Source of the DNA: Nitrospirota bacterium
GTDB lineage: Bacteria > Nitrospirota > Thermodesulfovibrionia > Thermodesulfovibrionales > UBA1546
Reading direction: 5' to 3'
DNA: 33,085 nucleotides
NCBI GenBank assembly: GCA_026387575.1
Contig: JAPLLK010000091.1
Location: 1 to 33,085, forward strand
The notes under the pieces were generated by a model. The model did not search any database. It saw only the letters and a program-made list of their open reading frames with translations, and was not told the DNA's origin. Shown piece after piece: positions 5,355 to 10,862 of this stretch (positions within the stretch are counted from its first letter, which is position 1; each line of letters begins with the position of its first letter). A program made the position numbers and the translations under genes.

Positions 5355-5396
5355 GGTTGAGGTTGAGATTAAGTTTGAGAGAACTAAACCTCAACC
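5355..5396 (-). other. Intercistronic hairpin overlapping a stop codon
   Basis: A perfect 10-bp inverted repeat (GGTTGAGGTT at 5355-5364, AACCTCAACC at 5387-5396). One arm lies in the last codons of the NuoF-tail gene and the other in the gap before nuoG. There is no U tract on the minus strand, so mRNA processing, stability or translational tuning is more likely than full termination. Confidence 0.5.
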
Positions 5397-5974
5397 TTAG
5401 CCGCGACCTGTTTTATGTCAATAATTACAATTGCCTCTGTCGGACAGACTTTAATACAGTCCCCGCATTTAATGCACCTCTTCTGCCTTATATCAAAGGG
5501 CAGATGTCCGCCCTGATAGGGCTTTTTCTTCTTTCCGAGTATTGCGTGATATTTACATACGTCCTGACATAATCCGCACATTATGCACTTTTCAGGAATA
5601 ATTACATATTCAATTAATGACGTGCACTCTCTTTCAGCGCAGGTCCCTTTTATATGCTCCTCGAATACACCGCTGTCTATCCACTCAATAATGAACTTTG
5701 CGGTGTCCTTGCCCTTTTTGCACATTGATGTCTCAAGCATGTGTCCGGCTATCATCTTCAATTTTGCTATATCAGCCTTTGTGCCTTTTCCTCCTGCAGT
5801 GTCCTCCAGCCGTATTTTTGCCTCATAACTGCCCATTGAACAGGGGAAACACCTCCCGCACATGGGCCCTGAAAGAAATTCTGTTACAAGATACAAAGCC
5901 TTCTGGACATGGCACTTTTTTGCATCTGCAATTTTCTTTATGTCTTCTAATTTCAATTCTTTATGCTCGTTCAT
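5384..5974 (-). CDS. Stand-alone NuoF C-terminal iron-sulfur domain fused to a 2x[4Fe-4S] ferredoxin
   Basis: A 196-residue protein matching only the C-terminal part of NuoF/HydB-type subunits. Residues about 30-100 form the NuoF iron-sulfur-binding helical domain with its cluster ligands (MCGRCFPCSMG, later SMCKKG). Residues about 120-185 form a two-cluster ferredoxin (CIMCGLCQDVC and CIKCGDCIKVC). The FMN/NADH-binding domain and SLBB domain are absent, so it cannot oxidise NADH alone. The full-length NuoF-like protein encoded 10 bp upstream ends in a homologous region, which suggests duplication of that tail. It probably adds clusters between the flavin subunit and the NuoG-like subunit, or serves as a ferredoxin docking subunit. 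The ATG at 5974 follows an AGGAAT-type ribosome site. Confidence 0.78.
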   Translation of the reverse strand: MNEHKELKLEDIKKIADAKKCHVQKALYLVTEFLSGPMCGRCFPCSMGSYEAKIRLEDTAGGKGTKADIAKLKMIAGHMLETSMCKKGKDTAKFIIEWIDSGVFEEHIKGTCAERECTSLIEYVIIPEKCIMCGLCQDVCKYHAILGKKKKPYQGGHLPFDIRQKRCIKCGDCIKVCPTEAIVIIDIKQVAAKVEV

Positions 5975-5984
5975 GGACCTATTC

Positions 5985-8324
5985 CTAATAAATATCCTCA
6001 GCCATGTATAGCACTTCTGGCAGCAGATATGATATAAGATCCCTGTAAGAAATCATGCCGACAATTTTTCCGTCTTCTATGACAGGCAGATGCCTGATCT
6101 TTTTATCCGACATGAGATGCACGGCAATACTTATGTCAATGGATGGGTCCAACGTAATAGGTTTTGTTGTCATAACGTTACCCATTATTTCATCATTGAC
6201 AGATATTTTTTTAGTGAAGCAGTGCATGATATCCCTTTCAGTGAATATGCCGATTAGTTCACCATTGTTATCAGTCACAAGTATTGACCCGACATTATTA
6301 CCATCCATGATAGTTATAGCATCAGCTATCTTGCAGTCTTTCTTGCAGGTTAATATCTTTGCAGGTTTTGATTTTATTACATCTCTAAGTGTCATCTTTG
6401 CTCTCCTTTCAAGGATTTCAAATTTTTCAGGAGGAATCCTGAATTGTTCTTCAAGCTTTATGACGCTGTGTTTCCTTATCTTAACGGCGCCTACAGGACA
6501 GGCCTGGTAGCAAGCCTTGCATTGTGTGCAGTAGGCGCGGTCAATATGGTATATATCCCTTGTCTCTGTGACGGCATCAAAGGCACAGGCCCGTTTACAG
6601 AGCCCGCATCTGATGCACTCAGCTTGATTGATAACAAAAACCCCTGTACCTTTGCAGACATTTGCCCTGCAATGGTTGTCATATATATGCTCTTCGTATT
6701 CATTCCTGAAATACTTTATTGTGCTAAGCACAGGGTTTGGCGCGCTCTGTCCGAGGCCACAGAGCGAACCCTTCTGGATAAGCTTGCCAATATCTATAAG
6801 TCTCTCGATATCGCCATGCTTGCCGTGGCCTGATGTAATATTTTCAAGTATCTGCAGCATCTGGAATGTGCCTATCCTGCATGGAGGGCATTTGCCGCAG
6901 GATTCTGACTGGGTAAAGGAAAGGAAGTATTTTGCGACATCAACCATACACGTATCTTCATCCATGACAACCATTCCGCCTGAACCCATCATCGAGCCGA
7001 CCTTTGTCAGAGAATCAAAATCAACAGGCAGGTCGAGATGGATTGCAGGAATACATCCTCCTGAAGGGCCTCCTGTCTGAATCGCCTTGAATTTTTTATC
7101 TTCCATTATGCCGCCGCCGATATCATAGATTATCTCTCTGAGTGTCATACCCATGGGCACTTCTACAAGTCCTGTATTCCTGACCTTTCCTGTCAGGGCA
7201 AAGACCTTTGTCCCGGGAGATGTTGCTGTTCCAATGCTTTTGAACCAATCGGCCCCGTTTTCGATTATAGGTGGCACGCATACGTATGTCTCTATGTTAT
7301 TCAGATTGCTCGGATATCCCCATGCGCCTCCGCCCTGCTCTGAAAGCCTTGGAGGCCTTGGCCTTGGAAATCCCCTTTCGCCCTCGACAGAAGCAACAAG
7401 CGCTGTTGATTCACCGCATACGAATGCTCCTGCGCCTTCTCTTATGTCTATGGTAAAGCTGAAGTTTGTCCCAAGTATGTTTTTGCCAAGGAGTCCGAGT
7501 TCCATTGCCTGCTTGATTGCGTGTGTCAGATTTTTAACTGCCAGAGGATATTCATGTCTCACATATATCATCCCGTAATCTGCGCCTATCGCATACGCGC
7601 ATAAGAGCATCCCCTCAAACAGGCTGTGAGGGTCTCCTTCCATGACAGACCTGTCCATAAATGCTCCGGGGTCGCCTTCGTCTCCATTGGCTATCACGAG
7701 TTTTATCTTGCCCTGCGCACTCTTTACGTGTTTCCATTTTTTGCCTGCAGGGAATCCTGCGCCGCCCCTTCCTCTGAGGTTTGCCTTATCAACCGCGCTC
7801 AGCACCTGGTCAGGGGTCATTGAGCCCAAGGCTTTTCCCAAAGCCGAATAACCGCCTACTGCGATATAGTGATATATGTTTCTCGGGTCTATAAGCCCGT
7901 TATTCCTTAGTGCGATTCTCAGCTGCTTCTTGTAGAAAGGCACGTTTGTCATCTCAGGGACGGGCTCGCTTAGGATATCCTGCCTGTAAAGGCTCTGCCT
8001 GAAGGGCATTTCCCCTTGTATGGTGTATGCAAGGATAGACCTTGCATGCTCCGGGTTCACCTTCTGATAGAATATATTATGTGGTTCTACTTTCATTACC
8101 GGCCCCTTTTGGCAAAGGCCCTGGCAGCCGGTCTTAACGATATCAATATTAATTCCGCGTTTGCCTGCCTCTTCTTCCATTGCAGAGAGCACCTTGGGAG
8201 TTCCTGTAGCAGTGCAAGCTGTTCCGCTGCAAATTCTTACTCTGGGAATCTCAGGTCTGAAGGTTTCGACTTTGAGGCGTTCCCCGAGTTTTTTAAGATC
8301 ATCTATAGATTTTAATCTCTCCAT
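5985..8324 (-). CDS. NuoF/HydB-like NADH-binding flavoprotein with C-terminal ferredoxin and CBS-pair domains
   Basis: 779 residues in five blocks. (1) A thioredoxin-like [2Fe-2S] domain with C32 and C37 (CSGTAC) and CQGLC further on. (2) The FMN/NADH-binding domain with GRGGAGFPAGKKW and the CGESTALVASVEG stretch. (3) An SLBB region and the NuoF [4Fe-4S] motif (SCGKCPPCRIG, then SLCGLG). (4) A two-cluster ferredoxin at about 565-620 (CIRCGLCKRAC, CTQCKACYQAC), a feature of HydB-type subunits of multimeric hydrogenases and formate dehydrogenases. (5) Two CBS motifs at 643-779 (GSILVTDNNGELIGIFTERD and RHLPVIEDGKIVGMISYRD). CBS pairs usually bind adenine nucleotides, so allosteric control by energy charge is inferred. 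It starts 2 bp after the NuoE-like stop. Expected role: NADH oxidation or NAD+ reduction in the cytoplasm, exchanging electrons with ferredoxin. Confidence 0.9.
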   Translation of the reverse strand: MERLKSIDDLKKLGERLKVETFRPEIPRVRICSGTACTATGTPKVLSAMEEEAGKRGINIDIVKTGCQGLCQKGPVMKVEPHNIFYQKVNPEHARSILAYTIQGEMPFRQSLYRQDILSEPVPEMTNVPFYKKQLRIALRNNGLIDPRNIYHYIAVGGYSALGKALGSMTPDQVLSAVDKANLRGRGGAGFPAGKKWKHVKSAQGKIKLVIANGDEGDPGAFMDRSVMEGDPHSLFEGMLLCAYAIGADYGMIYVRHEYPLAVKNLTHAIKQAMELGLLGKNILGTNFSFTIDIREGAGAFVCGESTALVASVEGERGFPRPRPPRLSEQGGGAWGYPSNLNNIETYVCVPPIIENGADWFKSIGTATSPGTKVFALTGKVRNTGLVEVPMGMTLREIIYDIGGGIMEDKKFKAIQTGGPSGGCIPAIHLDLPVDFDSLTKVGSMMGSGGMVVMDEDTCMVDVAKYFLSFTQSESCGKCPPCRIGTFQMLQILENITSGHGKHGDIERLIDIGKLIQKGSLCGLGQSAPNPVLSTIKYFRNEYEEHIYDNHCRANVCKGTGVFVINQAECIRCGLCKRACAFDAVTETRDIYHIDRAYCTQCKACYQACPVGAVKIRKHSVIKLEEQFRIPPEKFEILERRAKMTLRDVIKSKPAKILTCKKDCKIADAITIMDGNNVGSILVTDNNGELIGIFTERDIMHCFTKKISVNDEIMGNVMTTKPITLDPSIDISIAVHLMSDKKIRHLPVIEDGKIVGMISYRDLISYLLPEVLYMAEDIY

Positions 8325-8876: not shown

Positions 8877-10862
8877 CTAATAAATTCCAATATGCGGTTT
8901 TGCCGCTCTTTCAATCTCACGCCTTGCTGCCATATCCATAAGCACTCTTTCTGCGCCGAATTTTCCTGGCTCATACTTCTTGAGCTTAAGCGCCTCTCTC
9001 GCCTTGTCAATATAATCGAGCGCCATCTCAAGTATCTTTTCAGGATCGGGTTCGAAATGGAGCGCTCCCTTGAACCTCTCGAACCAGACCTCTGTCAGTA
9101 TTCTCGTAACTTCCTTGCTTGCCTCAACAGGTGATTCACCGCCGAATATCACAGGCACGCCTGATGCGGCAAAATAACAGCCAATCGCGATCGCCTTCTC
9201 CGACATCCACTCAGGCGCTATTCCCACAGCAGGCATTCCTCCGATTTCATCTGAGAGTCCGCCTTCTTCTGCCATGGCGCTTGCTATGGTGAGGATTCTG
9301 GAATTATCGACACAGGCTCCAAGGTGGAGTATCGGAGGAATTCCGATTGCCTCGCACACCTCGCGTAAACCTGGACCTGCATTTTCGAGCGCCATCTCAG
9401 GAGTGAGATACCCTGCAGTTCCGCACGCTGCTGCGCCGCAGCCGGTTGAGACAATAAGCACATCATGCTTTATGAGCTCTGTTGCGAGGAACCGGTGAAG
9501 TCCTGTTGAAGGCACTCTTGGATTGTCGCATCCTGCAAGACCCACAACTCCGCGAATTCTTCCTGCAATAATTGCGTCATTTAACGGTCTGAATGACGCC
9601 CTCCATTTTCCGCCCTGCATGTATTCGATGTACTCATGGGAAAATCCTGCGATAACCGGGAATTTCTCTGTAATGTGTTCTCCGTACGCTTTTCGGTTCT
9701 GGAAGTTGTCGATTGCTATCTTTATGATTTCCCTTGCAATTTCCTTTGCCCTGTGCTCATCAAACTCTATATGCATTGCGCCCTGTATCTTTGCCTTTTC
9801 GGAGGTAGTGATTACTTTTGTATGGAATTTTTTCGAAAGATCGGCAATCGCAGGCATAATGCATTGTACATCAACAGTAAGCGCATCTATAAGTCCGGTC
9901 ATGATCCCGAGCTCCTGGTTGGTAAAACCACCGGCAGTCGGTATCCCGTGTCTCATCAGTACCTCATTCGCTGTACAGCACATGCCGGCCAGGTTTATGC
10001 CTTTTGCGCCCTTTGATTTTGCATATGCTGTCATCTCAGGTTCTGATACGACGTCTACAATAGTTTCTGCAAGCAAAGGTTCGTGCCCGTGGACTACGAG
10101 ATTCACCTCATCTTTTTTAAATATGCCAAAGCTCGCCTCGGCCTTCACAGGCTGCGGAGTGCCGAAGAGAATGTCTGTGACATCTGTTGAAATCATTGAG
10201 CCTGCCCATCCGTCAGCAAGCGCTGTCCTCAGCCCCTGTGTCAGGAGATGATCAGGGTCATGGTCAACGCCGATGTGTGTCCTGTGCATTGTCTCACAGA
10301 CTTCTCTGTCAATGCCTCTCGGAATGATTCCCCATTTTCTCCAGCGTTCCTGAGTCTTTTTCGGCGCTCGCTTCAGGTAATTGATTTCTCCGCGTTGCCT
10401 TCCAAAGTCTTCTATCAGCTTTTCAGCCACATCTTTTGCAACAGCATTCACTTCCCTGCCTTCAAACTCAATATTCAGATATCCGGCAACCCGGTAGAGC
10501 TTTCTCACGTCAGTGATCTTAAAGTCTTTTGCTTGCCCGGTTGCGACAGCAAGTAAGGTAAAGGCCATCCCTCTGGCATGGTCGGAGTGCGCAGCCGTTC
10601 CTGCTGCTATCATCCTGAGGAAATTTCTCGCGGCAACAGTAGGAAGGGTTGCTCCGCATACACCCCTTGCCTCTTCTTCAGCATTTTTCCCGACGAGGCG
10701 GCATGGACCCATATGACAGACCTTGCAGCATGCGCCTGAGGCGCCAATAGGGCACGGCTTTATTTTTTCTGCCCTGTCAAAACAGGTCTCAATTCCATGG
10801 GCTTTTCCCCAATCAATTATTTGTTCAGCTTCTTTATTCGCAGATTTCGCGGCCTTATCCAT
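8877..10862 (-). CDS. acsA: Ni-Fe-S carbon monoxide dehydrogenase catalytic subunit
   Basis: 661 residues, close to typical CooS/AcsA length. It interconverts CO2 and CO using ferredoxin electrons and feeds CO to acetyl-CoA synthase. The N-terminus carries the B/D-cluster cysteines (CPIGASGACCKVCHMGPCR). The Ni-Fe C-cluster ligands are visible as His in VVHGHEP, Cys in AGMCCTANE, Cys in DVQCIMPA, Cys in STGCGAAACGTAG and Cys in LHLGACVDNSRI. It lies 69 bp downstream of acsB in the acsEDCBA order, so it is the ACS-associated CODH rather than a stand-alone respiratory CooS. The maturation gene cooC is not in the window. Confidence 0.95.
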   Translation of the reverse strand: MDKAAKSANKEAEQIIDWGKAHGIETCFDRAEKIKPCPIGASGACCKVCHMGPCRLVGKNAEEEARGVCGATLPTVAARNFLRMIAAGTAAHSDHARGMAFTLLAVATGQAKDFKITDVRKLYRVAGYLNIEFEGREVNAVAKDVAEKLIEDFGRQRGEINYLKRAPKKTQERWRKWGIIPRGIDREVCETMHRTHIGVDHDPDHLLTQGLRTALADGWAGSMISTDVTDILFGTPQPVKAEASFGIFKKDEVNLVVHGHEPLLAETIVDVVSEPEMTAYAKSKGAKGINLAGMCCTANEVLMRHGIPTAGGFTNQELGIMTGLIDALTVDVQCIMPAIADLSKKFHTKVITTSEKAKIQGAMHIEFDEHRAKEIAREIIKIAIDNFQNRKAYGEHITEKFPVIAGFSHEYIEYMQGGKWRASFRPLNDAIIAGRIRGVVGLAGCDNPRVPSTGLHRFLATELIKHDVLIVSTGCGAAACGTAGYLTPEMALENAGPGLREVCEAIGIPPILHLGACVDNSRILTIASAMAEEGGLSDEIGGMPAVGIAPEWMSEKAIAIGCYFAASGVPVIFGGESPVEASKEVTRILTEVWFERFKGALHFEPDPEKILEMALDYIDKAREALKLKKYEPGKFGAERVLMDMAARREIERAAKPHIGIY

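Follow-up and report, generated by a model that had tools for sequence, protein, structure and literature searches.

The C-terminal tail of a NuoF/BfuB-like protein was found as a separate gene between the NuoF- and NuoG-like genes of a CODH operon in a Nitrospirota bacterium. The gene (5384..5974, minus strand; protein P0001, called TAIL in the following) lies in a window of 33,085 nucleotides, the whole stretch of DNA that was analysed, and codes for 196 aa as seen from ORF, Pfam and alignment. With moderate confidence we propose that TAIL is a dedicated fourth subunit, which extends the electron wire of an NADH-dependent Bfu-type complex linked to CODH and POR (pyruvate-type 2-oxoacid:ferredoxin oxidoreductase). 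A soluble NuoEFG-like (BfuABC-type) complex, linked to NADH and ferredoxin, would work together with Ni-CODH, and with POR in one family. TAIL, stably bound to it, would have arisen long ago by copying of the BfuB tail and would have lost the link to the flavin domain. Electrons would pass its three [4Fe-4S] clusters, one N3/B1-like and two ferredoxin-like, around a metal hinge, and the wire would be extended from the BfuB/BfuA end toward a low-potential partner, i.e. CODH, POR or their ferredoxin. The points for a subunit are the BfuB ligand set, the match of the predicted model, the flanking NuoF and NuoG genes, natural fusions, CODH beside TAIL in varied gene orders, co-occurrence with CODH, the joint absence of NuoEFG and TAIL beside CODH/ACS in two genomes (G009, G174) and low dN/dS values.

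The first-pass annotation had described a 196-residue protein that keeps the cysteines of the NuoF tail and of a dicluster ferredoxin without FMN and SLBB domains. This was confirmed by Pfam and by an alignment of 92 TAIL sequences. NADH_4Fe-4S (PF10589) was assigned to residues 30-99 (E 9e-12) and, C-terminal to it, a dicluster ferredoxin (Fer4/Fer4_7) to residues 123-182; Complex1_51K (FMN/NADH, PF01512) and SLBB (PF10531) were not found in TAIL by Pfam. Compared with BfuB (HydB) proper, NADH_4Fe-4S (IPR019575) and 4Fe-4S ferredoxin (IPR017896) are present over cut-off, whereas the FMN-binding domain (IPR011538) and SLBB (IPR019554) are missing. After alignment of the 92 TAIL sequences with 107 NuoF tails, the 15 cysteines and one histidine of the BfuB-type tail were seen to be common to both groups, and each of these 16 ligand positions is conserved in 91 or all 92 TAIL sequences.

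The N3/B1-like [4Fe-4S] site comprises C39, C42, C45 and C85 (5720..5860, minus strand; 91-92/92 relatives), which align with C476, C479, C482 and C522 of the adjacent NuoF (P0002). The two-cluster ferredoxin contains C130, C133, C136 and C140 as well as C167, C170, C173 and C177 (5444..5587, minus strand; alignment). Clusters are presumably assembled at these sites. A third site of three cysteines and one histidine, the Zn/B2-like C21, H107, C112 and C117 (5624..5914, minus strand; 92/92), is an addition to the ligands listed before. From the aligned positions we infer that these residues are the counterparts of the HydB Zn-site ligands. In HydB of Thermotoga maritima zinc is bound by three cysteines and one histidine at a possible hinge of the mobile iron-sulfur arm (PMC9499530), and for Acetomicrobium a [2Fe-2S] cluster was modelled at the equivalent place (PMC8880783).

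TAIL departs from BfuB around the B1 site, with GPM before C39 and KKGKD after C85, and has a specific insertion around residues 156-161 of the ferredoxin part, which is absent from BfuB. The altered residues near the B1-like cluster may shift its potential or contacts. Beyond that, nothing specific speaks for a structural or assembly subunit with clusters idle in turnover, and such a role is very unlikely in our estimate, because all 12 cluster cysteines are kept in 91-92 of the 92 sequences across a long divergence.

Solved HydB tails match TAIL far above chance (7t2r_B, E 6e-24). An AlphaFold model calculated with 74 sequences reached a mean pLDDT of 85.5. When Foldseek compared it with the PDB, HydB/BfuB subunits ranked first, aligned over about 170 columns (8oh5_B with TMq 0.72 and rmsd 2.2), and VIA-align likewise places it with these subunits. 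The predicted model covers BfuB tails over nearly the whole length of TAIL. Since the alignment used for modelling included BfuB tails, this fold match adds little to the sequence evidence, with which it agrees.

Only 10 bases separate TAIL from the upstream gene of the same operon, which codes for the NuoF/BfuB-like subunit P0002 (5985..8324, minus strand). The adjoining full-length NuoF with the same C-terminal layout, likewise noted before, is real; the 16 ligands align between the two families. By Pfam, P0002 contains FMN, SLBB, thioredoxin-like [2Fe-2S], NADH_4Fe-4S and ferredoxin domains, with a B1-B4-type tail and a C-terminal CBS pair; the aligned region homologous to TAIL spans its residues 459-609 (6498..6950, minus strand). 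Downstream of TAIL the NuoG/BfuA-like P0003 (3299..5332; Pfam) is encoded. Upstream of NuoF follow the NuoE/BfuC-like P0004 (8327..8812; Pfam), the catalytic subunit P0005 of an anaerobic Ni-CODH (8877..10862; TIGR01702 over cut-off), the acetyl-CoA synthase (ACS) P0006 (10932..13130; NF040764 over cut-off) and corrinoid protein genes, with P0003 to P0006 all on the minus strand.

P0002-P0004 agree with the BfuABC domain definitions in the available text of PMC9304861, the Pfam equivalents being found in P0003, P0002 and P0004, and the CODH genes share one cluster with the BfuABC genes as defined there for Codh-Bfu. A complex of these proteins may bifurcate electrons between NAD(H), ferredoxin and a third substrate. 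In P0003 the Cys/Sec-His of formate dehydrogenases is missing (ARVCHS aligns with ASLYSD, Tyr-Ser standing at Cys-His); therefore, the TAIL complex by itself would be no formate dehydrogenase. The protein is also far below the TIGR01591 cut-off. The CBS pair of the operon NuoF (6000-6407 in the window) occurs in many relatives with proteins of about 780 aa, and in other relatives NuoF ends without it at about 630 aa; nucleotide control of the complex by this pair is possible. NfnAB-like genes are located near the cluster in many genomes (45-2239 in the window; L135, L136).

A scan of genome contigs yielded 162 matches to TAIL, and the best 80 of these were analysed for gene order. In at least 76 of these 80 loci the gene immediately before TAIL is NuoF, and in 77 the next gene after it is NuoG; the remaining loci are mainly contig ends or have intervening genes. 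The usual cluster is MeTr-CFeSP-ACS-CODH-NuoE-NuoF-TAIL-NuoG, and the order NuoE-NuoF-TAIL-NuoG is nearly invariant, mostly within the CODH/ACS operon. CODH is found beside TAIL also in CODH-only clusters of other lineages with different gene order. In L108-L111 and L118 it stands after NuoG or before NuoE and ACS is missing, the order in L065/L116 is TAIL-CODH-NuoE-NuoF, and L113 shows this arrangement with a broken NuoG. This NuoG, between TAIL and CODH (L113, 8400-9290), has a frameshift and a large internal deletion, possibly by assembly error. In L044 (7650-12948) TAIL is flanked by two NuoF genes, whose long identical stretches suggest gene conversion.

Four genomes of family f10 code for one protein of about 900 aa, composed of NuoF, an additional ferredoxin dicluster and TAIL. 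Downstream of the fusion gene lie NuoG and the POR genes gamma, ferredoxin-like, alpha and beta (L104, 5390-10166, minus strand; likewise L105-L107). An 851 aa ORF of L076 was rejected as a TAIL-NuoG fusion, because the ORF was spuriously prolonged in a different reading frame. The NuoF-ferredoxin-TAIL fusion suggests a position of TAIL past the ferredoxin end of NuoF, and the path would thereby be lengthened toward the low-potential enzyme or ferredoxin. The lengthened electron wire assumed in the first-pass annotation is supported to this extent, as the natural fusion to the NuoF end via an extra dicluster ferredoxin fits it. According to a table in the available text of PMC9304861, the oxidation of both CO and pyruvate lies near -500 mV, which fits a common adaptor for CODH and POR. 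A wire role is not self-evident, because in the HydABC bridge structure the distance between the B3/B4 clusters and the others is too large for electrons to pass directly (PMC9499530).

The fusion also bears on the question whether TAIL is a subunit at all. It is small, has a ferredoxin module and is encoded in one operon with CODH, and it could hence be a soluble three-cluster carrier, that is, a dedicated ferredoxin of CODH. We regard this as improbable, since TAIL is fused to NuoF in four genomes, its gene is placed between NuoF and NuoG, and the N3/B1 domain and the Zn-type site are retained.

The association with CODH and POR genes, to which the first-pass annotation had not pointed, is the strongest lead to the function of TAIL. 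A CODH match (E <= 1e-50) was detected in 84 of 85 genomes with TAIL and in 16 of 161 genomes without it (Fisher p 5e-48, with the genomes treated as independent despite shared descent). In G058, the sole TAIL genome without CODH match, ACS is located at the contig end on the TAIL contig; hence, CODH may be missing from the assembly. In G009 and G174 the genes next to CODH/ACS are NfnAB, directly behind it, and TAIL and NuoEFG are both absent from that place. Genus g14 (e.g. L143) has an ACS of a divergent kind (about 56% identity), and neither a CODH of the TAIL-operon type nor TAIL is present. In L145 (6803-10519) a second CODH (46% identical) adjoins a NuoF that belongs to the operon clade; TAIL, NuoE and NuoG were not found there.

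Among the best 80 of 162 matches, 24 loci have no CODH in the surrounding stretch. Some of these stretches are short contigs, others are longer than 15 kb. Because several of them are long, CODH need not be a physical partner of TAIL. These clusters would also suit a second ferredoxin docking and electron-exchange arm on the Bfu complex that makes no direct contact to CODH or POR, with CODH linked through shared soluble ferredoxin and common regulation only; a second docking branch had been named in the first-pass annotation as well. For NiFe-HydABCSL it was proposed that ferredoxin binds and is reduced at a [4Fe-4S] cluster of HydB (PMC8880783), in line with such an arm. The recurrence of CODH or POR as neighbour in several distinct arrangements argues against it, and we rate this alternative as rather doubtful. 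Equally tentative is a further-reaching form of the proposed fourth subunit, according to which TAIL marks a separate class of NADH-linked complexes, in which the detached BfuB arm would be docked straight onto CODH (or POR). If true, these enzymes would be hard-wired to NADH and ferredoxin in both directions, rather than depending on diffusing ferredoxin alone.

TAIL was found in 85 of 246 Nitrospirota genomes (E <= 1e-30). Most genomes of the order to which the window belongs carry it; the exceptions are genus g14 and a few further genomes. Among the best 80 of 162 matches most records are Nitrospirota, few are named only 'bacterium', and one (L094) is labelled Deferribacteres; the TAIL of L094 groups among those of Nitrospirota in the tree. 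In plasmid records only distant HydB-type tails and no closer match to TAIL were found. Pairwise comparison of closely related TAIL genes by the Nei-Gojobori method (own script) gave a dN/dS of about 0.04-0.16. A functionless duplicate in decay could be suspected from one copy (L060/L023) which is interrupted by an in-frame TGA; the second copy in this genome is intact. Decay in relatives, considered in the first-pass annotation as a possible objection, is already contradicted by the dN/dS values, the distribution in 85 of 246 genomes of the phylum and the nearly invariant ligands, and its probability is close to nil.

The partial gene duplication proposed in the first-pass annotation was examined by the comparison it had named, a phylogeny with the C-termini of NuoF and HydB proteins. 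In an unrooted tree of 78 tails, all TAIL sequences, fused ones included, are joined in one clade (100/100), and a branch of about 2.6 changes per column divides them from all BfuB tails. TAIL is thus one ancient clade; it is homologous to NuoF/HydB-type tails. The single deep clade excludes a recent copy of the adjacent NuoF gene as source. The NuoF tails of the operon cluster with one another, and a tree in which TAIL is constrained with them costs 2.5 log units (p-AU 0.41), i.e. this grouping is neither preferred nor rejected. Hence, the homology to the NuoF/HydB tail held, and descent from the adjacent gene is possible on the basis of the tree if the copy is old. The copying of the tail would be old, because TAIL is present in more than one class of Nitrospirota. 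If complex I NuoF were the source, a tail ending after N3, without the B3/B4 ferredoxin, would be expected; TAIL has the ferredoxin. The NuoF of complex I in the same genome (G000:C85, 423 aa) ends after N3, and its match to the NuoF tail is limited to the first 101 residues of the latter.

Besides complex I, the genome encodes another NuoE/NuoF pair, together with a NuoG-like gene of which the contig end leaves only the start. A formate dehydrogenase alpha gene with in-frame TGA was also detected (L148; G000:C48 11896-13893), and the TGA probably codes for selenocysteine. NiFe hydrogenase was not found over cut-off in this genome (92% complete).

The electron supply to CODH/ACS and the balance between ferredoxin and NADH are a central open question in the energetics of Wood-Ljungdahl organisms. 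TAIL, conserved across a bacterial order and fused in the neighbourhood of POR genes, is a concrete protein to test in this respect. The NuoEFG-like neighbours of CODH are already published. Inoue et al. (2019) reported COG1034, COG1894 and COG1905 with Ni-CODH of the Wood-Ljungdahl group (PMC6344411), as in the TAIL loci; a stand-alone tail protein is not mentioned in the available text. Schut et al. (2022) predicted Codh-Bfu and Por-Bfu complexes, Codh-Bfu only from Firmicutes (PMC9304861). BfuABC-type genes are clustered there with CODH or POR genes as in the TAIL loci; unlike these, no separate copy of the BfuB tail is named in the available text. A paper on the genomic context of CODH (eLife 2026, PMC13056359) does not mention NADH, Nuo, bifurcation or Nitrospirota. 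Thus, in the accessible text of the literature found, no report of the stand-alone tail subunit was encountered.

In comparison with known proteins, TAIL shares with the BfuB/HydB tail the fold over about 160-175 residues and the same 15 cysteines and one histidine. Unlike BfuB/HydB, it is encoded by a separate gene, has no FMN, SLBB and thioredoxin-like domain, and differs by the insertion in the ferredoxin part and the surroundings of B1. In the [FeFe] hydrogenase CbA5H, too, a domain resembling the HydB tail occurs in a protein other than NuoF (Foldseek E 1e-5; PMC9499530). In contrast to TAIL, this domain is part of the hydrogenase chain and not a separate protein. The role of the HydB arm in electron bifurcation is disputed; TAIL shows that this arm can evolve as a separate module.
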